From contig JASEFA010000010.1 in assembly GCA_030019365.1 (NCBI GenBank), positions 1 through 64,000 of the forward strand: a stretch of DNA of 64,000 bases, given 5' to 3'. Within the stretch, counting starts at the first letter, position 1; every line of letters starts with the position of its first letter. Source of the stretch: Bacillota bacterium. Lineage in GTDB: Bacteria; Bacillota; Sulfobacillia; JACIYH01. The position numbers were made by a program, and so were the translations under genes. Positions 8,445-41,778 of the stretch are shown piece after piece. The notes beneath the pieces were generated by a model that saw only the letters and a program-made list of their open reading frames with translations, was not told the DNA's origin and ran no database searches.

Positions 8445-8536
8445 GGCGCATCGCTCCCCTGGCCACCGGGACCCAGCAGGCCTGAGGGTCTCGAACCACC
8501 CAGGGCCGCCCCGGAAAGAGCGGCCCGACGAGGTCC

Positions 8537-8620
8537 GCCACTTCCCTCCGCTGGCATTACCCAGATCAGGTTCCAGGGTTGAGGGCAAGCCCTCTCTCAG
8601 CCCGAGGCACCCCTAGTGGC
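8537..8620 (-). promoter_or_regulatory. TPP (THI-element) riboswitch upstream of thiC
   Basis: On the minus strand the leader contains the hallmark TPP-riboswitch core: GGGGTGCC, then GGCTGAGA, then ACCTGATCTGGGTAATGCC and AGCGGAGGGA. The closing P1 helix is GCCACT (8620-8615) with AGTGGC (8542-8537). About 90 bases separate it from the thiC ATG. That gap holds a hairpin (GGGCCGC with GCGGCCC, near 8500-8525) without a T-run, so control by occlusion of ribosome binding is more likely than termination. Confidence 0.95.
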
Positions 8621-8640
8621 CTTTGTTCTTTTCCGACCTG

Positions 8641-27299: not shown

Positions 27300-30071
27300 T
27301 CAGCGCAGGTAGACGAGTTCAACGTCGGCGAGAAGATCGGGAGTGTCCAGCTTCCCCCGGTACGCTACCCTGCCTTCCTTGAGAACGTAGCAGGTCACGC
27401 CCCAGGAAGCCACCATCCGCGCCGCCTGCTCCACCAGCAACACGGCGGTACCCCGGGCGTTGATTTCCCGCACATGCTCCAGCACCGCAACTGCCAGGGC
27501 CGGGCTCAATCCCATGGTGGGTTCGTCCAGGCACAGGAGCCTGGGCCGCCCGATCAGGGCCCTGGCCAGGGCCAGCATCTGCTGTTCCCCTCCCGACAGG
27601 CTCCCCGCGGTCTGCTGCAGCCTTTCCTTCAGGCGGGGAAACAACTCCAGCACCCTTTCCAACGCCTGCGCAACTTCCTGCGCCTGCATCCGACCCGCCC
27701 CCAGCTCCAGGTTCTCTCTCACCGTGAGTCGCCCGAAGATGCGCCTGCCCTCCGGCACCAGGGCCGCCCCTGCCCGCACGATCTCCTCCGGCCGCCAGCC
27801 CACCACGCGCCTACCCGCCAGCGCGATCTCACCGGTGAAAACGCGCGCGGACCCGAAGATCGCCCTGAGCAGTGTGCTCTTGCCGGCACCGTTGGCCCCC
27901 AGCAGGCACACCAGATCGCCCTCCCGGACCCGCAGGTCCACCCCCTGCAGCACCGGCCGGCTGCCGTACCCCGCCGTCAGCCCGGATACTTCCAGTACGG
28001 GCGGCGTTTGTCCCTCCCGCTTGCCGCTATCCTCCCCCATGCCTGGGGCCACGGGCAGCGGCTCTGGTTGGGTGGGACGCGGCTCGGGGTGGGTGGGACG
28101 CGGCTCGGGGTGGGCGCGACGTGGCTCTGGTTGAGCGACAACACCTCCCTCCCGGCCCAGGTACGAGCGGGCCACCTCGGGATGAGAAAGCACCTGCCCG
28201 GGCGGTCCCTCCACCAGTACGCGACCTTCTGCCATGGCGAGCACCCGGTGGGCAACCCGCCTGACCACTTCCATGCGGTGCTCGATGAGCAGAATGGGCA
28301 CGCCCGAGGCAGCCAGTGTCCCCACCGCCGCACAGAGTTCGTCCACCTCCTGCTCCGTCATGCCCGCTGCCGGTTCGTCGAGCAGCAGAACCCGCGGCGC
28401 CCCGGCCACAGCGCGCAGCACCTCCAGCTTGCGGCGGTCGGCATAGGTGAGGGCCGCCGCAGTGGCCGCCCCGGCCCCATCGGCCTCTACCCGCAGACTG
28501 GGTAACAGGGCAGGGCCCGCCTCATCGCCCGATCGTACACACGTCTCCCCACAGAGACGGTCGTCCGGCCGGGCACCGCAGTCTCCACGGAGACGCCCGT
28601 CGGGACGTGCGCGCGTGTTTCCACCCAGACGTCCGGCCCCGCGCAGGGCAAACTCCCCGGCGGCCAGATTCGCGGCCGGCGTGAGGGAAAGAAACAGCCG
28701 CGGATTCTGGAAGCTCCTGATGAGTCCCAGGCCCGCACGCCGGTGCGGCGGCAGTCCGTCCAGCGCCACGGGTTCGGGTCGCCCGTCCAGAGTCACCCGC
28801 ACTCGCCCGCTGTCGGGCTTCAGGTATCCCGAGATCACGTCCACCAGGGTGCTCTTCCCGGCCCCGTTGGGACCGATTACCGCCAGCACCTCTCCCCGCC
28901 GCAACTGCAGGGAGACACCGTCCAGGGCCACCACGCCTCCGAACCGCTTCCTGATCCCCTCCACGGTCAGTACGATGTCGCCCTCCCCGGCCCCGCTATC
29001 CGGCCGCCGGGGAGGGATGACGGGCATGAGGCCGCGGCGGGCGGGGACACGAGGGCGGGCACGCGTGAAACCGGGCGGGCGCGTGGGGATGTGGGGGCGG
29101 GCGGGGATGAGACCGTGGGGCCGCGCCTGCATGAGACCCACCAGCAGCACCCCGTAGATAACCATGCGGTAGGAGGCGTACCCCCGCAGCAGTTCGGGGA
29201 GCACCACCAGCACCACCGCCCCCACCACGGCACCGGCCGGGTTGCCCACCCCGCCCAGCACGGCCATGCAGAAGATCGTCACGATCTCCGTCATGGAGAA
29301 GGTCTGGGGGAATACGGCTCCCTGCCAGGAGGCAAAGAAGACACCTGCCACGCCGGCGATGGCGGCACCGGCGGCGAAGGCACCCAGCCTGTACTTCACC
29401 GGGTCGATGCCGCAGGCCATGGCTCCCAGTTCGTCATCCCGCAGGCCCTTCCAGGCCAGGCCCGCCCGGGAACGGTCCAGGAGGCAGTACCCGGCATAGG
29501 TGAGGATCGCCAGGGCAGCCATGAGATAGTACCAGGACCTTACCCCGTCCACGGGGTGCCCGAGCAGAGAGGGAGAATCGATGCGGATGATGCCGTTGGG
29601 TCCATTGGTCAGGTTGACGGGGCGGTCCAGGTTGGTGAGGAGGATGCGTATGATCTCGCCGAACCCCAGGGTCACCACCGCCAGGTAGTCACCGCGCAGC
29701 CGCAGCACGGGAAATCCCAGCATCACCCCGGCCAGGGCGGTCAGCCCCATGGCCACCGGGACGATCACCCAGAAACCCAGGTGCACCCCCAGGTGCGGTG
29801 ACGCCAGCAGGGCACAGGTATAGGCGCCGATGGCGTAGAATCCGACGTACCCCAGGTCGAGCAACCCCGCCTGGCCCACCACCACGTTGAGGCCCAGCAC
29901 CAGGGTAACGTACAGGGCGACGGAGGTGGCCACCCTCAGGTGGTACGGGCTCCCGTCCAGGAGAGGAAAGGCCAGAAGCAGTGCCAGCAGGCCGGGTAGG
30001 GCCCATCCCCGGGGAAGCTGGCGCAGCAGACCCCATCCCTGGAGAAGAGATCGCATCCGCACCCGCCTCAT
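27300..30071 (-). CDS. Fused LivM-LivG-LivF amino acid transporter polypeptide
   Basis: One uninterrupted 923-codon frame carries three subunits that are normally separate. Residues about 1-315 are a LivM permease (LNVVVGQAGLLDLGYVGFY, LRLRGDYLAVVTLGFGEIIR). About 355-645 is a LivG ATPase (Walker A GPNGAGKST, Walker B VLLLDEPAAGM; the signature is degenerate, LTYADRRKLE instead of LPYGQQR). About 690-923 is a LivF ATPase (GANGAGKST, LSGGEQQM, LCLDEPTMGLSP). The linkers are short Arg/Pro/His- and Pro/Glu-rich tandem repeats. The ATG at 30069-30071 overlaps the livH stop (ATGA). The frame is open to 30824, but that part is livH in another frame. Confidence 0.85.
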   Translation of the reverse strand: MRRVRMRSLLQGWGLLRQLPRGWALPGLLALLLAFPLLDGSPYHLRVATSVALYVTLVLGLNVVVGQAGLLDLGYVGFYAIGAYTCALLASPHLGVHLGFWVIVPVAMGLTALAGVMLGFPVLRLRGDYLAVVTLGFGEIIRILLTNLDRPVNLTNGPNGIIRIDSPSLLGHPVDGVRSWYYLMAALAILTYAGYCLLDRSRAGLAWKGLRDDELGAMACGIDPVKYRLGAFAAGAAIAGVAGVFFASWQGAVFPQTFSMTEIVTIFCMAVLGGVGNPAGAVVGAVVLVVLPELLRGYASYRMVIYGVLLVGLMQARPHGLIPARPHIPTRPPGFTRARPRVPARRGLMPVIPPRRPDSGAGEGDIVLTVEGIRKRFGGVVALDGVSLQLRRGEVLAVIGPNGAGKSTLVDVISGYLKPDSGRVRVTLDGRPEPVALDGLPPHRRAGLGLIRSFQNPRLFLSLTPAANLAAGEFALRGAGRLGGNTRARPDGRLRGDCGARPDDRLCGETCVRSGDEAGPALLPSLRVEADGAGAATAAALTYADRRKLEVLRAVAGAPRVLLLDEPAAGMTEQEVDELCAAVGTLAASGVPILLIEHRMEVVRRVAHRVLAMAEGRVLVEGPPGQVLSHPEVARSYLGREGGVVAQPEPRRAHPEPRPTHPEPRPTQPEPLPVAPGMGEDSGKREGQTPPVLEVSGLTAGYGSRPVLQGVDLRVREGDLVCLLGANGAGKSTLLRAIFGSARVFTGEIALAGRRVVGWRPEEIVRAGAALVPEGRRIFGRLTVRENLELGAGRMQAQEVAQALERVLELFPRLKERLQQTAGSLSGGEQQMLALARALIGRPRLLCLDEPTMGLSPALAVAVLEHVREINARGTAVLLVEQAARMVASWGVTCYVLKEGRVAYRGKLDTPDLLADVELVYLR
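28060..28133 (-). repeat. 21-bp tandem repeat in the LivG-LivF linker
   Basis: About 3.5 copies of a 21-bp unit (plus strand ggctcggggtgggtgggacgc and near-identical copies at 28060, 28081 and 28102, with a partial at 28123). In protein this is a seven-residue repeat HPEPRPT. The second and third copies differ by few bases, so the expansion is recent. It forms the flexible linker of the fused transporter. Confidence 0.85.
28525..28632 (-). repeat. 36-bp tandem repeat inserted in the LivG domain
   Basis: Three diverged copies of a 36-bp unit (28525-28560, 28561-28596, 28597-28632) encode a 12-residue repeat of the type RLxGxxxARPDx. The insert lies after LAAGEFALRGAG, in the helical region of LivG where normal proteins have no such sequence. 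It keeps the frame. Confidence 0.75.
29020..29130 (-). repeat. Arg/Pro-rich repeat linker between LivM and LivG
   Basis: About four imperfect copies of a seven- to eight-codon unit (ARPHGLIP, ARPHIPT, RPPGFTR, ARPRVPA) join the permease end to the LivG start. On the plus strand these are GGGCGGGC-rich repeats. They replace the stop and start codons expected between livM and livG. Confidence 0.65.
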
Positions 30072-30982
30072 GCCCTCTGCCCCCTCGCCCTCCCGAGAAT
30101 CCCTTCCGGCCGCAAGAGGAGGGTCAGGATCAGCAGCGAGAAAGCGATGACGTCCCGGTAAACCGGGGACACGAAGGCAACCCCAAGGCTCTCCAGCAAT
30201 CCCAGCACCACTCCCCCCGCCATGGCTCCGTGCAGGTTGCCGATGCCGCCCAGGACACAGGCCGTGAAAGCCTTCATGCCCGCCGAGAAACCCATGTAGA
30301 AGTCGATCTGGGTGTAAAGCAGCCCCACCATGACTCCTCCGGCGCCGGCGAGCAGGGACCCCAGCAGGAAAGCGGCCACCACCACCCGGTTCACCGAGAC
30401 TCCCGCCCAGGCGGCCGCCTCCGGGTCTTCCGCCACGGCGCGCATGGCCTTCCCCGTGTAAGTGTGCCGCACGGTATAATCCAGTGCGAGCATGAACAGG
30501 GCGGCCACGACCACCACCCCCAGTCTGAGGAAGGATACGAAGGTCCCCCCCAGGTCGATCCCCGCGTCGGGGGAGATGATGGCCGAGGTCAGGTAGGTCT
30601 TGGCCCGGCCCCCGGTGGCGAGCATGACCGTGTTCTGCAGCAGCATGGATACCCCCAGGGCGGCAATCAGGGGGGCCAGCCGCGATGCCCGCCGCAGGGG
30701 ACGATAAGCGAAACGTTCCACGGCCACGCCCAGCGTGGCCGCCACCAGTGCCGCTGCCACCAGCACCGGAAAGAGAAGCACGGGCCCGCTCAGGTGGGGA
30801 AGGAGGAGGCCCATGGCCACCCAACCACCAAAGGCCCCCACCATGAACACGTCTCCGTGGGCGAAGTTGAGCATACCCAGGGTACCGTACACCATGGAGT
30901 ACCCAATGGCGATGAGCCCGTATACCGACCCCAGGGTGATGCCGTTGATGACCTGCTGCGGCACCTGCGTGAGGAAAGACAC
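30068..30982 (-). CDS. livH: HAAT-family ABC transporter permease LivH
   Basis: A 304-residue permease: TLGSVYGLIAIGYSMVYGTL, then LNFAHGDVFMVGAFGG, and the C-terminal loop GMKAFTACVLGGIGNLHGAMAGG. It has the typical number of spans for LivH. The GTG start shares one base with the stop of the binding-protein gene (TAGTG), and its own stop overlaps the start of the fused LivMGF gene. It pairs with the LivM domain of that fusion. A Trp-type T-box leader governs the operon. Confidence 0.93.
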   Translation of the reverse strand: MSFLTQVPQQVINGITLGSVYGLIAIGYSMVYGTLGMLNFAHGDVFMVGAFGGWVAMGLLLPHLSGPVLLFPVLVAAALVAATLGVAVERFAYRPLRRASRLAPLIAALGVSMLLQNTVMLATGGRAKTYLTSAIISPDAGIDLGGTFVSFLRLGVVVVAALFMLALDYTVRHTYTGKAMRAVAEDPEAAAWAGVSVNRVVVAAFLLGSLLAGAGGVMVGLLYTQIDFYMGFSAGMKAFTACVLGGIGNLHGAMAGGVVLGLLESLGVAFVSPVYRDVIAFSLLILTLLLRPEGILGRARGQRA

Positions 30983-32196
30983 TACTTGCCGCCTATGGGG
31001 TAGGCCTTGACCTCCTTGAAGTCGGGACCCTGCACCTGGAGGACGTAGATGCTTCCGCCCACCACGTCCCCCTTGCCGTCGAAGCTGACCGGGAAGCCCA
31101 GGATGCCGCGGAAATCGCGGGTGGATGCCACCGCGTCCCGGACCGCACCCCGATCCACCTTGCCGTCCTTCACCCCGGCCCTGCGGATGGCGGCAATGAG
31201 GATGCTGGTGGCTTCGTAGCTCTGGCCGGAGAAGATGCTCATAGCTCCGTACTTCTCCTCGAAAGCCTTTACGAAGCTCTGCGCCTCCGGTACCTCCCTG
31301 ACATCCTTGCCGATGGCGGTGACGTAGAAGCCTTCGGCGGCACCCTGGGAGCCTTTGATGAGCTGATCCTTCTCCTTGAGGCCGTCACCGCCCATGAACT
31401 TCGTCCGCATCTTCATGGAGCGGGCCTGGATAACCAGGCTTGCTGCCTGGGCGGGGTTGGGCAGGGCCAGGTACACCAGATCGGGAGCCTCCGCCCGCAC
31501 CCGGGTGAGGATGGCGGAGAAGTCCCGGTCAGTGGGAGCGATCTGACCCCGCGTCACGGCGACGCCGAGCTTCTTCAGGGCGGCCTCCACCTGGTCTGCC
31601 AGGCCCTGGCCGTACGTTCCCTTGTCATCGATCATGTAGACCTTGCCCACCTTCAGCTCTTCGCTGATGAACCGGGCGGCCGCCGGCCCCTGAGCATCGT
31701 CCCGCGGGCACACCCGGAACATGACCCGGTAGCCCTGCTCGGTCAGGGCGGGGTTGGTGGCCGACTGGCTGATGATGACCAGGCCCGCCTTCTCGTAGAT
31801 GGGGAGGGCCCCGTTCACACAGTTGGAGTTCATGGGCCCCACCACCCCCACCACTCCGGGGTCGGCGGCGAACTTCTGGGCCACCAGGGTGGCCTGGGCG
31901 GCATCGCCGGCGTCGTCGCCCACCGTCACCTCGATCTGAGATCCATTCACCCCGCCGGCCCGGTTTGCCTCTTCCACCGCCATGCGGATGGCGTTCAGCG
32001 AGTCAAGACCGATCTTGGACAGGTCCCCCGTATAGGGGCCCGCCGCCCCGATGCGGATCACCGCGCGTGCTCCCTCTCCCTGGCCACCCTGACCGGCCGG
32101 AGTCCGGGAAGCACACGCCGTCGCCGCCAGGGCGAGGACCAGCATCAGCGCCAGTACCGCCCCACCCGCCCCCGGCAGCTTCCCCCTTCTTCTCAT
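30982..32196 (-). CDS. HAAT-family ABC transporter substrate-binding lipoprotein (predicted tryptophan-responsive)
   Basis: A 404-residue binding protein. The ATG at 32194-32196 follows GGGGGGTGAG. The frame upstream is open only because it crosses the T-box terminator. The signal peptide has a lipobox ending ATAC at about residue 27. Mature-domain motifs are IRIGAAGPYTGDLSKIG, VGPMNSNCVNGALPIYE and FMGGDGLKEKDQ. By family it would be called LivJ, but the leader suggests that charged tRNA-Trp, not a branched-chain tRNA, controls it. Tryptophan or a related aromatic compound is therefore a candidate ligand. Confidence 0.9.
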   Translation of the reverse strand: MRRRGKLPGAGGAVLALMLVLALAATACASRTPAGQGGQGEGARAVIRIGAAGPYTGDLSKIGLDSLNAIRMAVEEANRAGGVNGSQIEVTVGDDAGDAAQATLVAQKFAADPGVVGVVGPMNSNCVNGALPIYEKAGLVIISQSATNPALTEQGYRVMFRVCPRDDAQGPAAARFISEELKVGKVYMIDDKGTYGQGLADQVEAALKKLGVAVTRGQIAPTDRDFSAILTRVRAEAPDLVYLALPNPAQAASLVIQARSMKMRTKFMGGDGLKEKDQLIKGSQGAAEGFYVTAIGKDVREVPEAQSFVKAFEEKYGAMSIFSGQSYEATSILIAAIRRAGVKDGKVDRGAVRDAVASTRDFRGILGFPVSFDGKGDVVGGSIYVLQVQGPDFKEVKAYPIGGK

Positions 32197-32208
32197 CGCG
32201 CTCACCCC

Positions 32209-32250
32209 CCAGAAAAATTGAAGGCCTTTCGTCCGGGACGAAAGGCCTTC
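32209..32250 (-). terminator. T-box leader terminator hairpin
   Basis: On the minus strand GAAGGCCTTTCGTC pairs with GACGAAAGGCCTTC (outer edges 32250 and 32220), followed by AATTTTTC. This is a strong Rho-independent terminator placed directly after the T-box sequence and before the ribosome site of the binding-protein gene. Confidence 0.93.
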
Positions 32251-32545
32251 GCTTCCGCGGTGCCACCCTTCTTGAGCCCGGCTCCCATGCCGGACCCCAC
32301 TCGCATCAGGTACAGGACCGCCTCCGGTCCGATACCCTATCCCGCTAACGGGGGAATCCGTCAATCGCTACTTGCCCCGGCCCCGCCTCCCGGCTGCGTG
32401 TGCGCCGTCGGCCGCTCTACGGGCGTTCGCGTCGCCTCTCCCGGGCCCATTCACTCGGGCAACTCTGCACCGGCCTCACACCCCCGCCGGCTCGCTGCGC
32501 ATAATGCCCGGCTACTCTCCCCGCTCATCGAGCTTGCTACTGGTT
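32209..32545 (-). promoter_or_regulatory. T-box riboswitch (tRNA-sensing leader), probable tRNA-Trp specificity
   Basis: The T-box sequence AAGGGTGGCACCGCGG lies at 32270-32255 on the minus strand, next to a terminator. Upstream is a Stem I with GATGAGCGG, the AGUA element (32516-32513), GCAGCGAGCCGGC and GGGGGTGTGAGGCC. The 3' side of the specifier loop reads AGUGAAUGGG before the lower helix. The standard GAA-NNN-purine pattern gives UGG (32449-32447), the Trp codon. The antiterminator UGGN is UGGC, which pairs with discriminator G73 as in tRNA-Trp, whereas Leu, Ile and Val tRNAs have A73. The leader would antiterminate when tRNA-Trp is uncharged. Confidence 0.88.
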
Positions 32546-32627
32546 TGCAGTTAATCTAGCAGGTGCCGAGCCCCCTGTCAAGGGGTAGAGCCTGGGGTGA
32601 GGAGCCACGAGTCTGGCCCCCCACCCC

Positions 32628-33794
32628 TTACCCTTCCTCGAACCGCTCCTTTATGCTCATGCCACGGTTGCCCAGCTCGTCGCGCAACTCCTCATACACG
32701 GCGGCGTCCGCGAACACCTTCTCCAGCGGGGCCACCCCGGGCGTGCTGATCCGGCCGCGCAGGAGCATACCCACCAGGATGGAGCAGGTGTACCCCGTGG
32801 TCCGGGCCATGGACGTCACCCGGCTCTCCACGTCGCAAAAGTCGACCATCTCAAACGTCCATGAGGCCCGCTTTCCCTGGCTCTCCCCCCGGACCACCAC
32901 ACGCACGGCGGTGACATCGGCCTCATCACCCTGCTGAAGCAGGGGCGCCAGCAGCGCCCCCGTGAAGCGCCTCGGCACCACCTCCACGCCGTCCACCCGC
33001 ACGGGTTCCCGGGAGAAGAAGCCGCAGTCGCGCAGAAAGGCCACCTTATCCCGATGACCGCGGTAGCGCACGGTCTTCTCCGCCAGTTCCCGGAACCCCA
33101 TCTGGACCCCCGTGCGGGCGAGCGTCCCCAGCCCGTACGTGTAGAAGGCCTCGCAGGCGCCCACCGGCTCGGGGAAGGTGACCTCCTCCAGGCCGTCCAG
33201 GGCCTGCGCCTCCACAACGCGCCCGTCCCTGACGACGAGGGCGGGGGCCACGTACTCGTCGATCACCGTGTCGATGGAGAACACCAGCCGGTATTCGAGC
33301 GGCGGACGCGGATGCAGAGGGAGTCCTCCCACGTAAACGACGCCTTCCAGAGCACGGTCGAGCCTGGCCGCCCCCTGCCCCACCAGGGCGTTCGTGAGCC
33401 CGGGTGCCACCCCGCACCCTGGCAGCAGCGTCACCCCTGCCCTGGCGGCCCGGTCGTGATAAGCGAAGATGTCGAAACCTTCCGCTGAGCCGGTCAGGTC
33501 CGCCAGTGACACCCCGGCCTCTATGGCCGCCTCCGTCACCCGGGCGACCGCCGCCACGGGGTAGGCGCCCGCTACCACGTCCGCCCCCCGCATGGCGTCC
33601 ACCAGTGCCCGCCGGTTCCAGATGTCGAGGACCATACCCTCGCAGCGGTCGCGGCCAACGCGACGTACCACTTCCCCAACGCGGACGGGGTCGATGTCTG
33701 CGATAACCACGTGCTCAGCGGTCCCGTGTTTCAGCAAGTCGCTCGCAATGGCGGGGCCCATGAGCCCCGCACCCAGCACCAGTACCTTCGCCAT
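32628..33794 (-). CDS. Saccharopine dehydrogenase-family oxidoreductase
   Basis: A 388-residue NAD(P)-dependent dehydrogenase. The N-terminal Rossmann fold is KVLVLGAGLMGPAIASDLL, then VIADIDPVRVGEVV. GCGVAPGLTNALVGQGA is the saccharopine-dehydrogenase hinge, and the C-terminal catalytic domain follows. Size and motifs fit the single-domain lysine 6-dehydrogenase or saccharopine reductase group. It stands alone downstream of the T-box leader region, on the same strand but facing away from the transporter. Lysine or another amino acid is a likely substrate class, but this is not certain. Confidence 0.88.
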   Translation of the reverse strand: MAKVLVLGAGLMGPAIASDLLKHGTAEHVVIADIDPVRVGEVVRRVGRDRCEGMVLDIWNRRALVDAMRGADVVAGAYPVAAVARVTEAAIEAGVSLADLTGSAEGFDIFAYHDRAARAGVTLLPGCGVAPGLTNALVGQGAARLDRALEGVVYVGGLPLHPRPPLEYRLVFSIDTVIDEYVAPALVVRDGRVVEAQALDGLEEVTFPEPVGACEAFYTYGLGTLARTGVQMGFRELAEKTVRYRGHRDKVAFLRDCGFFSREPVRVDGVEVVPRRFTGALLAPLLQQGDEADVTAVRVVVRGESQGKRASWTFEMVDFCDVESRVTSMARTTGYTCSILVGMLLRGRISTPGVAPLEKVFADAAVYEELRDELGNRGMSIKERFEEG

Positions 33795-34555: not shown

Positions 34556-34936
34556 CTATCGTGCCGCCCCAGGAGCACCCAGGTAGGTGCGCAGCCCCTC
34601 CTTCACCGCCTCCGCGAGCAGTTCCTCGGGCACGCCGTACACGATGGCGTTCAGGGTGACGGTAACCGCAGCGACCGCACCGGTGACATTCCCCCGCCAG
34701 CGCACCCTCTCCTCCAGAGAAGTCACGCTGAAACCCAGCATGCCCGCGTCCGTATCCAGAAGGCCTTTGATGTGGCCTACAAGAGGGCAGCCCTGCCGCC
34801 GCAACCAACCCAACAGATGAGCCACGAACTCCTCCACCGCCGCCCTCAACCGTTGGGGCGGCACCGGAGCAGGAAGCGGAAACGAGACCCTGCCGGCCCA
34901 CACCGCGGGGTGCCGGCCGTCGACCGCCCGGGTCAT
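34556..34936 (-). CDS. Conserved hypothetical protein next to a CobW-like GTPase
   Basis: A 126-residue soluble protein starting MTRAVDGRHPAVWAGRVSF. Its ATG overlaps the stop of the cobW-like gene (ATGA), so it is the last gene of the corrinoid methyltransfer operon. It has an alpha/beta pattern with HLLGWLRRQGCPLVGHIKGLL and VTVTLNAIVYGVPEELL. No catalytic motif is recognised. Tight coupling suggests an accessory role in corrinoid or metal handling. Confidence 0.7.
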   Translation of the reverse strand: MTRAVDGRHPAVWAGRVSFPLPAPVPPQRLRAAVEEFVAHLLGWLRRQGCPLVGHIKGLLDTDAGMLGFSVTSLEERVRWRGNVTGAVAAVTVTLNAIVYGVPEELLAEAVKEGLRTYLGAPGAAR

Positions 34937-35526
34937 GCCAGCGCCTCCAGGAGCAAGTCGAGGTGCAGACCTTTCTCGGCCGAAACCGGCACCACTACCG
35001 CGTTGGCGTTCAGGGAGGCCACCTCATCCACCACCCTGTCCACCGCGGCAGGGTCGACTTCGTCGATCTTGTTCACCGCCACCACATCCGCCGCCTCGAT
35101 CTGGGCCGTCACCAGGGGACCTACGGCCTCCCGCAAAAGAGCGTATCGCGGGGCATCGACCACGGTGAGCACGCGGACGTCACCGCCGTCGGTCCACCGC
35201 CTTACCGTGCGCACGATGTCGCCCGGCAGGGCGATCCCCGTGGCCTCAACCATCACCAGGTCGGGAGAGAAGGCGTCCCGGACCTTCCCCAGCGTGACCA
35301 CCAGGTCCGCGGCGAGGGTGCAGCAAACGCATCCGGCGTACAACTCCCGCACCTCGAGCCCCTCGCGCTGCAGGTACTGGCCGTCGATGCCCACTTCACC
35401 CACTTCGTTTTCGATGATGACCATGCGGAGGGGGCGGGCGCGAAGCCGCCCCACCATTGCGAGCAGCAGGGTGGTCTTGCCCGCCCCCAGGAACCCGGAC
35501 AGCACAAGCAGTCTCAGTTCAGTCAC
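34933..35526 (-). CDS. CobW/G3E-family GTPase (metallochaperone-like)
   Basis: A 197-residue G3E P-loop GTPase: GFLGAGKTT (Walker A, residues about 12-20), ENEVGEVGIDGQYL, the metal-binding GCVCCT motif near 66, EATGIALP, and NKIDEVD as G4. Full-length CobW/YeiR proteins carry an extra C-terminal domain (about 300 residues). This one has only the GTPase domain, as in short HypB/CobW-like proteins near methyltransferases. It probably delivers a metal or helps load or reactivate the corrinoid. It overlaps the upstream MtaA-like gene by eight bases. Confidence 0.9.
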   Translation of the reverse strand: MTELRLLVLSGFLGAGKTTLLLAMVGRLRARPLRMVIIENEVGEVGIDGQYLQREGLEVRELYAGCVCCTLAADLVVTLGKVRDAFSPDLVMVEATGIALPGDIVRTVRRWTDGGDVRVLTVVDAPRYALLREAVGPLVTAQIEAADVVAVNKIDEVDPAAVDRVVDEVASLNANAVVVPVSAEKGLHLDLLLEALA

Positions 35527-36664
35527 CGCCTCCGTTCCGCCCGTACACCCCGTAAGTGCGGGCAGTTTCCACCATGGCCCGCACGTTCTCCGGCCTGGCG
35601 TCGGGGGGAATGTCGCACCCCTGGCTGAGGATGAAGCCCCCTCCCCGGCCCACCCGGTCGATCAATTGCCGCGTGTAGTCCTCAACCTCTTCCATGCTAC
35701 CCAGCACCAGCATGGTGGGGTGCACGTCGCCCTTGAGGCACATGTGATCCCCGAGGATCTCCTTGGCCTTGAAGATGTCGGTGAAGCCGTCCAGGTGGAG
35801 GATGCACTTGGCCCGGGGCAGCTCCCGGAAGTAGGGCAGGTTCTTGGTCCAGTCCTGGTCGAAGTGCAGCAGCGGCGTGATTCCGTCCGCTACCAGGGCC
35901 TCCACTACCTGCTTCAGCGAGGGGAGGAAGAACCGCTCGAAGATCTTCAGGTTCACCAGCCCGCCACAGGCCCGGGTAGCTCCGAGGAATACTCCCGGGA
36001 TGCCGGTCACCTTCACCGCCAGCTTGGCCGATTCCACCACGTCGGGCACCGACGCCTCGATGGCCGCCTGCACCTTGTCGGGGTAGCGATACAGGTCGAG
36101 GATGAACTGGTGGAAGGTACGCGCTCCGGAAAAGCTGTCAAAGGGCATGGGCGCAGCGGAGGCACACAGCACGAAGGCACCGGCCTCCCGCCACTTGCGT
36201 ACGTCTTCCGCCGATTTCTCCACATGCCACTGCAGGCGGCCCACCACGTCACCTGGGCTCATCTGCAGAATCCGGCAGCCCAGCGTCACCAGGAAGTGAT
36301 TGAAGCCCTTCTGCACCACCAGGTCGTAATCCTCCACCTGCATGAAGGGCTGGCTCTCGTCGAGCTGCCACAACCACTGGTCGGGGAACTCCTTCCCCGG
36401 CACCTTCACACGCGTGCCCCAGAGCAGGGTGAACAGGAAGGGAGTGGCCGGGCTGGGCGCCAGGACGCCGTCGGCGCCGAAACCCTTCCACACCTCGATG
36501 ATGGTGTCCCGCGCCCGGTCGTAATCGCTGGTGAACTCCGCCAGCGACATGCCTTTCTGCCTGGCGGCGAAGGAATCCATGGCCAGGATCACCGGGACCC
36601 GGTCGGGCTCCTGGAGACTAACCGCCCGCCTGACCCTCTCCTCTGCGGTCATGTTCTCCGTCAT
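35519..36664 (-). CDS. Uroporphyrinogen decarboxylase-family methyltransferase (MtaA/MtbA-like)
   Basis: A 381-residue TIM barrel of the URO-D superfamily, in the position of the methylcobamide:acceptor methyltransferase. Zinc-site candidates are His in LLHFDQDWT and Cys in LSQGCDIPPDARPENV. MtaA has HxC there, while this protein has HFD, so the first Cys ligand is replaced by Asp. It therefore belongs to the wider URO-D-like methyltransferase group, not to classical MtaA. It is flanked by a corrinoid protein (one base apart) and a G3E GTPase. The methyl acceptor is unknown. Confidence 0.85.
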   Translation of the reverse strand: MTENMTAEERVRRAVSLQEPDRVPVILAMDSFAARQKGMSLAEFTSDYDRARDTIIEVWKGFGADGVLAPSPATPFLFTLLWGTRVKVPGKEFPDQWLWQLDESQPFMQVEDYDLVVQKGFNHFLVTLGCRILQMSPGDVVGRLQWHVEKSAEDVRKWREAGAFVLCASAAPMPFDSFSGARTFHQFILDLYRYPDKVQAAIEASVPDVVESAKLAVKVTGIPGVFLGATRACGGLVNLKIFERFFLPSLKQVVEALVADGITPLLHFDQDWTKNLPYFRELPRAKCILHLDGFTDIFKAKEILGDHMCLKGDVHPTMLVLGSMEEVEDYTRQLIDRVGRGGGFILSQGCDIPPDARPENVRAMVETARTYGVYGRNGGGD

Positions 36665-37303
36665 TCACTTCACCCCCAGAAACTGCCTGGCAAGGGCCAC
36701 CGCATCCTGGGCGTCGTAACCCACGCCGTCGGCCCCCGTGTACGCCCGCACCTTCTCGTTGACCGGGCCGCCGCCGATCATCACCTTCACCCTGTCCCTC
36801 AACCGGGCCTGCTCGAGCGCATGGATGGTCTCTTTCATGGGATCGAACGACACCGTAAGTAGCGCGGAGAGGCCGAGCACGGTGGCTCCCGTCTCCTGCA
36901 GGGCGCTGACAATGCGCTCCGGAGGGACGTCCACCCCCAGGTCGAAGACCTCAAAGCCGTTGGCGGAAAGGATCATGCTCACGATGTTCTTCCCTATGTC
37001 GTGGATGTCCCCCTTCACCGTAGCCATGACCACACGTCCCAGCGGCGCCTCTCGCTTTCCCGCCAGCAGCGGTTCCAGTACCACCATGACCTGCTTGAAG
37101 ATATCGGCCGCCATGATGAGCTCGGAAACGAAGTACTCGCCCTTTTCGAAACGGTCCCCCACCTGGCTGATGCCGCGGCGCAGATCGCCCACCAGGGCCC
37201 ACGGGTCGGCGCCCGCCTCCGCACCCTCTTTGACCAGCCGCAGCACGTCTTCCTCCCTCAGATCCGCCAGCGCCAGCGCCAAGCCACCACTCAAGTCGTC
37301 CAC
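36665..37303 (-). CDS. Corrinoid (B12-binding) methyl carrier protein
   Basis: A 212-residue MtaC/MtbC-type protein. The N-terminal helical cap is LREEDVLRLVKEGAEAGADP. The B12-binding domain has the base-off/His-on motif GDIHDIGKNIV near residue 100 and IGGGPVNEKVR near the C-terminus. It carries the methyl group between a substrate-specific methyltransferase and the URO-D-type partner. No substrate-side methyltransferase (MtaB, MttB, MtvB) is found nearby. First gene of the minus-strand corrinoid operon. Confidence 0.93.
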   Translation of the reverse strand: MDDLSGGLALALADLREEDVLRLVKEGAEAGADPWALVGDLRRGISQVGDRFEKGEYFVSELIMAADIFKQVMVVLEPLLAGKREAPLGRVVMATVKGDIHDIGKNIVSMILSANGFEVFDLGVDVPPERIVSALQETGATVLGLSALLTVSFDPMKETIHALEQARLRDRVKVMIGGGPVNEKVRAYTGADGVGYDAQDAVALARQFLGVK

Positions 37304-37438
37304 CTCCCATGCACTCGTCTAGACGTTTATGCTTCTATTCTTCAAGACCCTGCACTTTTCCTGCCTGCCCCTGCCGTCCGGGGCGCGAGAGGAACCACAC
37401 CAGCAGCCAGAGAATGATGAACCTGGAGGTAATGGCAC

Positions 37439-38125
37439 ATGGGCCGCGGTGTGGCCAAACGGGAGCCGGACCTGGTGATCACCTGCCAACCTCTGGCCGA
37501 GGTGGTTTCGGTGCTTGCCGGGGGCCGCGTTCCACTCCACCTGGTCGACAGCAAGCTGCACCGGTCCCCGCCCCGCCTGCACGACTACCTGCAACAACTG
37601 ATCGAAGATAACCCGGCGGACTGCGTGGTCCTCGCCATGGGTCTGTGCGGCGGGGCAGCCAGCGACCTGGTGGTGAAGCAGGGCGCCCTCGTCCTGCCGC
37701 GCGTGGACGACTGCCTGGCCCTCCTGCTAGGATCGCAGGAATCATACCGCCAGCAGGCTGGCGAGTGCCCCGGGACCTACTACCTGTCCAAGGGGTGGCT
37801 GGACTGCCCTGACAACATCGTGGCCGAATACGAGCGCTGCGTGGAGCGGCGCGGCCCGGACGGCGCCAGGAGGGTCTTTCGCTCCCTCATCGGCAACTAC
37901 CGCCGCCTGGTGTACATCGAAGCCGGGCTGGCGGAGGAGGAGTGTTTTGCGTGCAGGGCACAGTCGTTCGCCGGAACCTTCGACCTGGAATTCCACCGCC
38001 GCCCGGCCGACCTGAGACTCCTCGCGAACCTGGTCCGGGGAAAACGCGACCCCAGGACCATCACCTTCCCCGCGGGGAAGACCACGTCGGTGCTGGACTT
38101 CCTCATACAGGCTCCGTGCAACTGA
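37439..38125 (+). CDS. DUF1638 protein
   Basis: A 228-residue protein of the DUF1638 type that commonly accompanies corrinoid methyltransferase clusters. Visible features are ITCQPLAEVVSVLAG, LHDYLQQLIEDNP, LAMGLCGGAASDL and a run of Cys and Tyr residues (TYYLSKGWLDC, then EECFACRAQSF) that may bind a metal. It is divergent from the corrinoid operon, and its stop shares one base with the start of a GntR regulator. The biochemical role is not established; corrinoid-protein reactivation or metal handling has been inferred only from context. Confidence 0.8.
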   Translation: MGRGVAKREPDLVITCQPLAEVVSVLAGGRVPLHLVDSKLHRSPPRLHDYLQQLIEDNPADCVVLAMGLCGGAASDLVVKQGALVLPRVDDCLALLLGSQESYRQQAGECPGTYYLSKGWLDCPDNIVAEYERCVERRGPDGARRVFRSLIGNYRRLVYIEAGLAEEECFACRAQSFAGTFDLEFHRRPADLRLLANLVRGKRDPRTITFPAGKTTSVLDFLIQAPCN

Positions 38126-38946
38126 TGGGCGGACGGTCCGGGGTGGCGGCGTTGAAGGAGCAGGGAGAAACAAGCGGACGCACGAGGAACAGCTGGGAGG
38201 CGATCGCCCGGGAGCGCATCGACCGGAGTTCCTTCGTGCCCCCGTACTACCAGCTGGCCCAGATCATAGAACGTCACGTGCGCAGCGGCGACTTCGGGCC
38301 CGGGGACATGCTACCACCCGAGGCTGAACTCGTCCGTATGTTCGGTATCAGCCGCATGACGGTCAGAAAGGGCATTGAGAAACTGGCCCGGCTGGGCCTG
38401 GTCACCGCCAGCCAGGGCAGGGGCACTTTCGTCAACCAGCCACCCCTGGAACACGCCACCTTCAGCCTGCCCGAGTTCGCCGAAGACATGCGGGCGCGCG
38501 GACTGCGCCCCTCCTGCCGCCTGCTGGAAGCCAAGGTGATGCGGGCACCCGCCGACGTGGCAAGCAAGCTCAACCTCGACCCCGGTCGCCGGGTGTTGTT
38601 TGTGAGGCGGTTGCTGTACGCCGACGACGAGCCCATGGTCTACGACAGGAAGTACCTGCGGTACGACCGCGGGCAACCCGTCCTGGAGGCGGAGCTTGAG
38701 TACATGAACCTACCGGCTGTGGTGGCCCGGCACTCCGACGTCCTCCCCTCGGATAGCCGGTTCGTGGTCCGGGTAGCCCGCTGCAACCGCGAGGAGGCGG
38801 CGCTGCTCGGGGTCGAGCCGGACTCCCCCACCTTCCAGGTGGAGCAGTTCGTCCATTCCGCCGACGGGTCGCTGGTGGGCTGGGGAATGCTGGTGTATCG
38901 CGGCGACCGCTACTACTTTACTTCTCTGCCCCGGCTGCTGAGGTAG
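38125..38946 (+). CDS. GntR family regulator with UTRA domain
   Basis: A 273-residue HutC-type regulator. The ATG at 38125 overlaps the DUF1638 stop (TGATG). The winged helix is PPYYQLAQIIERHVRSGDFG, PGDMLPPEAELVRMFGISR and MTVRKGIEKLARLGL. The UTRA ligand domain has SRFVVRVARCNREEAALLG and the final YRGDRYYFTSLPRL. It probably controls the surrounding corrinoid genes on both strands. Confidence 0.92.
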   Translation: MGGRSGVAALKEQGETSGRTRNSWEAIARERIDRSSFVPPYYQLAQIIERHVRSGDFGPGDMLPPEAELVRMFGISRMTVRKGIEKLARLGLVTASQGRGTFVNQPPLEHATFSLPEFAEDMRARGLRPSCRLLEAKVMRAPADVASKLNLDPGRRVLFVRRLLYADDEPMVYDRKYLRYDRGQPVLEAELEYMNLPAVVARHSDVLPSDSRFVVRVARCNREEAALLGVEPDSPTFQVEQFVHSADGSLVGWGMLVYRGDRYYFTSLPRLLR

Positions 38947-38982
38947 CCGGAACCCGGACGGAAGACACCTGGGGGGACAAGA

Positions 38983-39648
38983 ATGGGCACCCACGCGAGG
39001 AAAGCTACCAGCTTGGCCAGTGCCATCGCCGACCTGGACGAGGAGTGTACCCTGCAGGCCGTGCGCAGGCTCTTGGGGCGCGGGTGCTCTCCCCTCTACA
39101 TCGTGGAAGAGTGCCGCAAGGGGTTGGCCGAGGTGGGGGAAAAGTACGCCCGGGGCGAGTATTTCCTCAGCGACCTGGTCATGTCGGCGGAACTGTTCCG
39201 GGAGGTCATGGCTCTCATCTGGCCGGTGTGGGTGGGGGAACAGCCAAGCGATGCGCCCGACGCCAGCATCGCGGTGGGGACGGTCCACGGTGATATCCAC
39301 GATATCGGCAAGAACATCGTCGTTTCCTTGTTGCGCTCGCATGGCTTCCAGGTCCGCGACCTGGGGATTGACGTCCCGCCCAACGAATTCGTGCGCCAGG
39401 TGCGCACCGGCCAGGCCAGGATCGTGGGCATGTCGGGGCTGGTGACCGCTGCGTTCGACTCCATGAAGACCACCGTCGAGCTGCTGTGTCGGGAGGGCCT
39501 GCGCGATCGGGTGTTCGTGATGATCGGGGGGCTGGTCGACGACAGGGTCGCGAAATACGTGGGGGCAGACGCCTGGGTGCGGGACGCCGCCCAGGCCATC
39601 CCCCTGTGCACCCGCGTGCTGCGTCCAGGTCAGCAGGATCCCGAGTGA
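38983..39648 (+). CDS. Second corrinoid (B12-binding) methyl carrier protein
   Basis: A 221-residue protein paralogous to the corrinoid protein at 36665-37303: helical cap LDEECTLQAVRRLLGRGCSP, EKYARGEYFLSDLVMSAELF, the cobalamin motif GDIHDIGKNIVV, and FVMIGGLVDDRVAKYVGAD. It is transcribed with the GntR regulator and DUF1638. Two carriers with one URO-D-type partner suggest two methyl substrates, or one carrier paired with enzymes elsewhere. Confidence 0.93.
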   Translation: MGTHARKATSLASAIADLDEECTLQAVRRLLGRGCSPLYIVEECRKGLAEVGEKYARGEYFLSDLVMSAELFREVMALIWPVWVGEQPSDAPDASIAVGTVHGDIHDIGKNIVVSLLRSHGFQVRDLGIDVPPNEFVRQVRTGQARIVGMSGLVTAAFDSMKTTVELLCREGLRDRVFVMIGGLVDDRVAKYVGADAWVRDAAQAIPLCTRVLRPGQQDPE

Positions 39649-39695
39649 GGCACGTCCGCGCGCCGGGGGGCCGCGCTTGCGCAACCGCCCCTGCG

Positions 39696-40622
39696 TCATA
39701 CCTCGGCCCGGGGAACGCCGGGCCCGCGCACAGAGAGCACCAGCAGGAAGTCACCGGCCGCACCCCCGCCCCGCTCGGTCTCCTCCGCGGGGGGCCCACC
39801 CGCCGCGGGTCCGTGCACGTGGACGCGGAACACACACCGCTGCACGCCGCCGATGTGGGCGAACATGGCGCGGGCCGCAGCCACGGGCTTGCGCGCCGCC
39901 ACCGCGTCGAAAACGCGCTCGTGGTCGTACACCGACTGGATGGCCCGCCCGGGGATACTGAGGCTGTACCTCCGGCTCTCCCTGATCGTCTCCATCATGC
40001 CGTCCATGATCCCCATGAGCACGGCGTTGCCCGTGCTCAGGGTGAGACGGTGATGGAAGGTGCTGTCCAGCTGCTCCAGCCTGTCCAGGGGCGGCCCGGA
40101 AGGACCCACCACGGGACCTTCCACCAGCCCCTTCATTTCGCCCACCACCTCGCGCAGGCCGGCCACCTCCGCTTCCGAGGCCCGCTGCGCCGCCCACGCC
40201 GCTGCCTGGCACTCCAGCACTTTGCGGATTTCGTACAGGTGGTACAGACCCTCGGGCGGCAGCACGGGGGCAGGTGTCAGCCGGCGCAAGATTTCCGCGG
40301 GCGCGGCACAGGTCACGTAGACGCCGTCTCCGTGCCGGATGGACACCACTCCCAGGGCGCGCAGGATCTTCAGCGCTTCGCGCACCGAGGGCCTGCTCAC
40401 CCCCAGGGCCGACGACAACTCCAACTCCCCCGGCAGGCGCTCGCCGGGACCCAGTTCGCCCGCCGCCACCTTCTGCCGGATGACTTCCGCCAGTTGCTCG
40501 TACAGGGGCCGGGGCTGCTTCAGCAGCCCAAACCGGGCGGCATCCACCGGCTTCCGCCTGCCCACCTTCCCACCCCCCACACGCGCGCTCTGCAGCCCGG
40601 GCGCGGCGCCGGCCTCAGGCAC
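39696..40622 (-). CDS. FadR-type GntR regulator (FCD domain)
   Basis: A 308-residue regulator: [40 protein letters not shown] and [15 protein letters not shown] form the winged helix; [15 protein letters not shown] and the His-rich region near 245 fit the FCD metal/acid pocket. Residues after about 275 ([15 protein letters not shown]) are low-complexity. Its start overlaps the stop of the UxaA-like gene by eight bases, so it is co-transcribed with, and probably regulates, the UxaA/SAF lyase genes. Confidence 0.88.
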
Positions 40623-41778
40623 TGCGGAACAGCTTGGTGAGCACGAACTCCCGGTGACCGAGCACCTCGGCCGCCGTCAGGCGACCGTTGGCCGTGCGCA
40701 GGAGCATGTCCATGAGGTCGTCGGCCGCCCCGTCCAGAGTCTTCTCCAGGGTGAGCAGGCCGGAGACGTCCACGTCGATGTGTTCGGACATGGTGGCCAC
40801 GGTGACCGGGTTGGCGGACAGCTTGATCACGGGCAGGACGGGATTGCCCACGACGTTGCCCTGCCCGGTGGGGAACAGGTGCACCACCGCTCCCCCGGCC
40901 GCGAAAAGGGTGACCGCCTCCGCGCCGGCCGAAGAAGTGTCCATGAAGTAGAGTCCCCTGCCCGGAGGGAGCTGAGCCGGCTCCAGCACCCCGTCCACGC
41001 GGGCGCGGCCGATCTTCTGGATATTCCCCATGGCCTTTTCCTCGATGGTGGTCAACCCGCCCGTGATGTTCCCCTGAGTGGGCTGCGAGCCCAGCAGGTC
41101 CGCCTCCTCCCGCTCGATGAACCCCACGTAGTCGTTGAACACCCGCAGGAACTGCGCCTGCAGTTCGGGCGTCTTCATGCGCGCGGCCACGAGGTCCTCG
41201 CCCCCGGTAATCTCGGAGGTCTCACCGAACAGCACGGTGGCTCCCGCGTCCAGCAGGCGCTCCACCACCCGCCCCACCGTCGGATTGGAGGCCAGCCCCG
41301 AGGTGGTGTCCGACTCGCCACACTTGACGCTCACCACTATCTCCGACAGATCCACCTCTTCCCGACGCAGCTCGGAGGCATAGTGCACCAACTCCTTGGC
41401 CTTGCGGGACGCCTTCTCGATGGTGGAGAGGTCTCCGTTGCGCTCGATGGCAAACCAGACCACAGGCTTGCCCGTCTCGGCGATGCCATCGGCCAGCCGG
41501 CGCGTCCAGTTGGGCTCGATCCCGATCACCACCGCCGCGGCGATGTTGGGGTTCCGCCCCGCGTTGATCATGGTGCGGAAGAAGAGATCCAGGTCCGCAC
41601 CGAACTGCAGCCGCCCGTAAGGGTGGGCCAGGGCCATGGTACCCTGGATCACCCTGCTCACCGCCTCGGCGGCTGCGTTGGAAAGGTCGTCGAGAGGGAT
41701 GATGGCCACGTGGTTGCGGGTCCCCACCCCCCCGCCCGGCCGGCGGTATCCCCAGAAGGTCCGCTTCACCTGCCCCAC
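40615..41778 (-). CDS. UxaA/SuyB-type lyase, large subunit
   Basis: A 387-residue catalytic subunit of the altronate dehydratase/sulfolactate sulfo-lyase family: [49 protein letters not shown] and GPQPTQ-like [14 protein letters not shown], with [18 protein letters not shown]. The Cys in KCGESD is the expected Fe/Mg ligand. The separate SAF small subunit overlaps upstream. This split arrangement fits SuyAB or a split UxaA; sugar acid, sulfolactate and other hydroxy acids all remain possible substrates. Confidence 0.85.

Follow-up and report, generated by a model that had tools for sequence, protein, structure and literature searches.

What does an importer carry when its subunits are those of a branched-chain amino acid system and its leader appears to answer to tryptophan? 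This question is raised by an operon that runs from 32196 to 27300 on the minus strand of a stretch of 64,000 nucleotides (the window) from a Bacillota bacterium. Importers of LivJHMGF make-up are annotated as branched-chain by default; here an RNA switch, missing trp genes and an altered binding pocket point to tryptophan instead. The leader, its specifier and the matching tRNA are all present in the sequence, the arrangement is conserved over 14 genera, and trp genes are missing in most of the genomes that carry it. In our judgement the operon very probably encodes a HAAT ABC importer controlled by tRNA-Trp T-box attenuation, with L-tryptophan, and possibly other aromatics, as its main substrate.

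The leader and its tRNA specificity

A reading made from the sequence alone had described positions 32209-32545 as a T-box leader with a terminator and a Stem I carrying an AGUA element. Both the interval and the description were borne out by cmscan and by elements read directly. The Rfam T-box model RF00230 aligned over its full length at 32537-32231 of the minus strand (45.8 bits, E = 6.4e-9); since this lies under the gathering score of 93 bits, the T-box was missing from a default Rfam scan of the window and was recovered in e-value mode. On the same strand, a sigma-70-type promoter, TTGACA-N17-TAGATT, is found at 32553-32581 (10 of 12 matches; one site against 0.1 expected in shuffled sequences), giving a leader of about 330 bases from promoter to terminator end. 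Stem I (32436-32534), identified by direct reading, the covariance model and RNAalifold, has a K-turn, GAUGA, at about 32529-32525 and an AGUA bulge at 32516-32513, both read directly, followed by a specifier loop in which UGG (Trp) occupies 32447-32449 within GAA-UGG-G. The T-box sequence itself, AAGGGUGGCACCGCG, was located at 32256-32270 by direct reading and the covariance model, and contains the antiterminator bulge UGGC at 32265-32262. An intrinsic terminator at 32213-32250, found by a terminator search and by folding, consists of a 14-bp stem (32250-32220) and a following AATTTTT, and the 3' part of the leader folds with a z of -4.2. In the Rfam alignment CUUUCGUCC is at once the 5' arm of the terminator and the 3' arm of the antiterminator, and the two forms are therefore mutually exclusive. 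The locus thus combines a covariance match, a Stem I with K-turn, AGUA and specifier loop, and a UGGN bulge that competes with a terminator, as a T-box does, and its UGG specifier and a bulge compatible with the tRNA-Trp discriminator place it in the tryptophan class.

That UGG is the specifier, as had been proposed, agrees with the covariance-model alignment, which places it in that position. RNAalifold, given 24 homologous Stem I sequences and no structure, returned AAUGGG as an unpaired internal loop, in which UGG forms the second to fourth base from the end, matching the TBDB '+0' specifier rule (PMC7778990). The bulge UGGC had been offered as a second, independent pointer to tryptophan. 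The tRNA-Trp of this genome does have G73, its 3' end reading CCGGGCCU-G-CCA, and tRNA-Trp ends in G73 in 7 other carriers of the class as well. The bulge C is a Watson-Crick partner for this base and excludes Leu and Val, and to that extent the argument holds; G73 is not, however, confined to tRNA-Trp, being present also in the Ser, Asn, Asp, Gln and two Arg tRNAs of the window genome. UGGC by itself was accordingly ruled out as proof of tryptophan, and it is the combination of UGG and UGGC, not the bulge alone, that shows it. According to TBDB, 46% of Trp T-boxes have U at the bulge position (PMC7778990).

The window genome has 13 T-boxes, including those of trpE and of the importer, and we read the specifier and bulge base of each by eye together with the gene downstream. 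The bulge base is U in the leaders of leuS (specifier CUC), valS (GUC), metG (AUG), pheS (UUC), an aroF-type DAHP synthase (UUC), alaS (GCC) and proC (CCC), A in that of thrS (ACC) and G in that of cysE (UGC). It is C ahead of a class-V aminotransferase and an mtnA-type gene (both UCC), ahead of trpE and ahead of the window importer (both UGG), so that the genome's own trpE leader is identical to the window leader in both features. The Val, Met, Phe, Ala and Pro tRNAs and the single Leu tRNA read have A73, those for Thr and Cys have U73, and those for Ser and Trp have G73; in every calibrated leader, therefore, bulge base and cognate discriminator pair, counting G-U for Cys.

From the established T-box mechanism we infer tRNA binding and antitermination at this leader, with uncharged tRNA-Trp turning the operon on. 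The uncharged tRNA would contact the leader twice, its CCA anticodon pairing with the Stem I specifier UGG and its G73-CCA end with the bulge UGGC; the antiterminator, once stabilised, would block the terminator and allow the importer to be made. When tRNA-Trp is charged, the terminator would form and transcription would stop at 32213. Antitermination by uncharged tRNA-Trp has been demonstrated for the T-box of TrpXYZ in Streptococcus suis (PMC9382623).

Two further features were seen among the T-boxes of this genome and its relatives. The trpE leaders of the window genome (L003 of G000) and of two others (L130 of G002, L144 of G057) carry two consecutive antiterminator motifs in tandem before the gene, GGGUGGCACC... 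and then GGGUGG[U/C]ACCACGG. The Ser-specifier T-box (UCC, UGGC) ahead of the methylthioribose-1-phosphate isomerase (mtnA)-like gene (L010, G000 C11:34595-34735) is present in G002 and G001 too.

The importer clade and its binding pocket

The operon comprises three genes on the minus strand. A substrate-binding lipoprotein (Peripla_BP_6, HAAT; generic name 'LivJ'), recognized by Pfam and by its structural relatives, occupies 30982-32196, its start being the ATG at 32196, with a GTG at 32205 also possible. Pfam further identifies a LivH-like permease (PF02653) at 30068-30982 and, at 27300-30071, a LivM-like permease (PF02653) fused to LivG-like and LivF-like ATPases (two PF00005) in a single ORF of 923 residues. 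One Peripla_BP_6, two PF02653 and two PF00005 domains are the make-up of a HAAT importer. The NCBIfam models for LivH, LivG, LivF and branched-chain binding proteins also match, all under their cut-offs. The closest solved relatives of the binding protein are the GABA/amino-acid receptor Atu2422 and the E. coli leucine-binding protein (LBP). An AlphaFold model of the binding protein built from five sequences matched the expected HAAT set only, and with a mean pLDDT of 70 it was kept out of the argument on pocket geometry. Directly upstream of the leader is a saccharopine-dehydrogenase-like gene (32628-33794, minus strand), which is not conserved beside the importer in the class members that we looked at.

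Among 154 genomes of the class, 7 others have an orthologue of the binding protein with 57-86% identity over most of its length, while the next-best homologues have at most 38%. Sampling the phylum (398 genomes) added 20 genomes whose orthologue is 61-71% identical; a short-peptide scan of public genomes gave one close orthologue only. Together these proteins form a clade of 29 members from 28 genomes, 14 genera and 9 families, with support of 100/100 in a maximum-likelihood tree. In all 16 orthologues for which a full ORF was present in the DNA read, LivM, LivG and LivF are likewise joined in one ORF, of about 830-970 residues.

The switch is conserved with the importer. A T-box lies directly upstream of the operon in all 8 class members, and in every leader with upstream DNA available (28 of 28) the specifier is UGG; the one clade member lacking a readable leader (L111) is at a contig end. 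The bulge is UGGC in 27 leaders and UGGU in one. UGG is preceded by GAA, GAG or GCG, so that the flanks vary while the codon is constant, and Leu, Ile and Val codons are absent as specifiers from every leader read. Orthologous leaders score 69-113 bits against RF00230, three of them above the cut-off. From the 24 homologues RNAalifold recovers the T-box Stem I with no structure given, and in 18 of its 22 pairs both sides have changed with pairing kept. No T-box motif was found within 1.5 kb of about 28 homologues of at most 38% identity, including four encoded in the window genome, by a motif search (five also by Rfam). Nine orthologues (L091-L097, L107, L111) at first seemed to be exceptions with no adjacent T-box. 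They were rejected as such because their operon also includes genes for an FeS protein and an aldehyde:ferredoxin oxidoreductase, and the T-box stands before these, 2-3 kb further upstream; L111 alone is unread. Elsewhere among the phylum members read, the T-box immediately precedes the importer genes.

When the binding proteins are aligned to E. coli LBP, Ser79, Thr102 and Tyr150 are kept in all 29 clade members and Glu226 is replaced by Asp. In that family these four positions hold the amino and carboxyl groups of the ligand, and Trp18, Tyr202 and Tyr276 belong to the side-chain wall. In this wall the clade has Ile for Trp18, a small residue for Tyr202 (the partner of which shifts by one with the alignment) and Phe for Tyr276, and Tyr202 is retained in most distant homologues. 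The clade also differs at invariant pocket positions from further HAAT binding proteins that its genomes encode. With two bulky rings gone, the pocket would suit a larger ligand such as tryptophan, though this is no proof of one. If so, the clade would provide a natural HAAT scaffold with a predicted tryptophan pocket.

Tryptophan supply and the probable substrate

Only 4 of the 28 carriers have trpF (PF00697), which the same search found in 14 of 14 control genomes. The same 4 carriers have the canonical trpB (TIGR00263) and 3 others have TrpB2, so that in 21 of the 28 every known type of tryptophan synthase beta chain is missing. Within the 398-genome phylum sample, 1 of 21 carriers has trpB, against 275 of 377 non-carriers (73%; Fisher p = 3e-10); counted by genus the figures are 1 of 9 and 194 of 258 (p = 1.5e-4), the latter value being the fairer because the genomes are related. 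Judged by these gene contents, most carriers look like tryptophan auxotrophs. The window genome is in the minority: its trp operon is intact and has a Trp T-box of its own, and tryptophan import is therefore not essential there. Its importer would be a scavenging arm of the same Trp regulon. In G002, another species of the genus, trpB is present and the importer is absent. In one genus aroC, aroK-B and aroQ are directly upstream of the operon.

From the switch, the missing genes and the pocket we infer that L-tryptophan is the main substrate. Against this assignment stand the closest solved structures, whose ligands are Leu/Ile/Val or small amino acids, the intact trp operon of the window genome, and an oxidoreductase that shares the switch in part of the clade. 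A T-box, moreover, indicates which amino acid the cell monitors, and this need not be the one that the transporter moves; transporters are commonly held to have a wider specificity (PMC2494555). The T-box could sense tRNA-Trp ahead of a HAAT importer of general hydrophobic, or of branched-chain/aromatic, specificity that happens to be tied to tryptophan shortage, a possibility to which the fold, the Leu/Ile/Val-binding solved relatives and the NCBIfam labelling of the subunits as LivH/M/G/F-like (though under equivalog cut-offs) all lend some weight. We nevertheless think it unlikely, since the clade departs from its own genomes' other HAAT binding proteins in the pocket, has a fused M-G-F subunit, and is preceded by leaders whose sole specifier is UGG and never a Leu, Ile or Val codon. 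Still less probable, at the level of the RNA, is that the specifier was misread, that another tRNA is sensed or that the leader is a degenerate remnant. The one observation in favour, a score under the Rfam gathering cut-off, loses its force in that 11 of this genome's 13 T-boxes, including those of alaS, valS, thrS, pheS, metG and trpE, also fail to reach it, and the low score is for this reason a trait of the G+C-rich group, whose T-boxes fall under the cut-off. Orthologous leaders reach 112.8 bits, and the invariance of UGG between variable flanks and the compensatory changes in Stem I make this last explanation scarcely credible.

An indolic precursor or acid (e.g. indole-3-acetate or indolepyruvate) that is converted to tryptophan could also be the substrate, with an oxidoreductase acting on an indolic aldehyde or acid. 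In genus g136 and in G229 and G264 (loci L112-L115, L117, L156-L158), a TIGR04076/4Fe-4S, polyferredoxin-like protein and an aldehyde:ferredoxin oxidoreductase are encoded between the Trp T-box and the binding-protein gene, and solved structures show that HAAT proteins of Rhodopseudomonas bind aromatic acids. Against this, the clade retains the LBP contacts to the alpha-amino group and the carboxylate (Ser79, Thr102, an acid at 226), unlike what an acid lacking the amino group would need; most operons of the clade are devoid of the oxidoreductase; and carriers with neither trpB nor trpF argue against import of indole or anthranilate, which most carriers, having neither form of TrpB, could not use. 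We therefore consider an indolic substrate highly improbable. The oxidoreductase itself is a separate matter. Its induction by tryptophan shortage does not fit a catabolic role, and a simple tryptophan importer does not account for its co-regulation in part of the clade. A further, rather doubtful proposal is that this is a HAAT branch dedicated to tryptophan and retained in many lineages of one phylum that are auxotrophic for it; some of its operons would be tryptophan salvage units with a redox step on indolic compounds, the tRNA-Trp switch driving the oxidoreductase there too. No paper joining a Trp T-box with aldehyde:ferredoxin oxidoreductase was found in the open literature searched. With L-tryptophan as the probable substrate, the clade of 14 genera gives a concrete rule for re-annotation and predicts a nutritional need of mostly uncultured bacteria.

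Related systems and other observations

The closest parallel in regulation is TrpXYZ of Streptococcus suis, in which a Trp T-box with UGG and UGGC likewise stands before an ABC importer operon that is induced by tryptophan limitation in a tryptophan auxotroph (PMC9382623). In TrpXYZ one gene encodes the permease and another the ATPase, whereas the window importer has Peripla_BP_6, two permeases and two ATPases, three of these being fused. Judged by operon make-up, the importer falls outside the TrpXYZ type, although it works in a similar way. With E. coli LivJ/LivK-LivHMGF the importer shares its subunits, its fold and the alpha-amino-acid contacts of LBP, and it differs in the replacement of Trp18 and Tyr202 by small residues, in the M-G-F fusion and in the Trp T-box. 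A T-box has been used before to infer transporter specificity, for the NSS-family Trp/Phe/Leu transporters of the Bacillus cereus group, which are sodium symporters and not ABC systems (PMC2494555). The table of that survey lists Trp ABC systems, and its text does not mention a HAAT system under a Trp T-box. We did not find such a system in the open literature searched, although an earlier mention is possible. The switch belongs to the tryptophan class of the known T-box family; the transporter family appears to be new for it, with priority uncertain.

A complete tRNA-Ala(GGC) gene was found inside the leuS-type T-box leader (specifier CUC) of the window genome, in the position of Stem III between Stem I and the antiterminator (L001 1559-1634; G000 contig C2:519004-519076, minus strand). 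The insert is flanked by GGAUAAAGC...GCUUUAUC, and it is the sole tRNA-Ala(GGC) among the tRNA genes read in this genome (most of 42). The arrangement is conserved in three genomes of the genus and in G057, from another family of the class (L133 1742-1817; L134 1738-1813, where the contig ends before leuS is readable; L126 1678-1753), and no paper describing it was found in the literature searched. Processing of the tRNA-Ala would cut the leuS-type leader. Elsewhere in the window there is a TPP riboswitch at 8526-8624 (minus strand, 74.6 bits). A candidate corrinoid methyltransferase system lies at 34933-41778, a region encoding corrinoid proteins, an MtaA/UroD-like methyltransferase, a CobW-like GTPase, GntR regulators and a galactarate-dehydratase-like protein.
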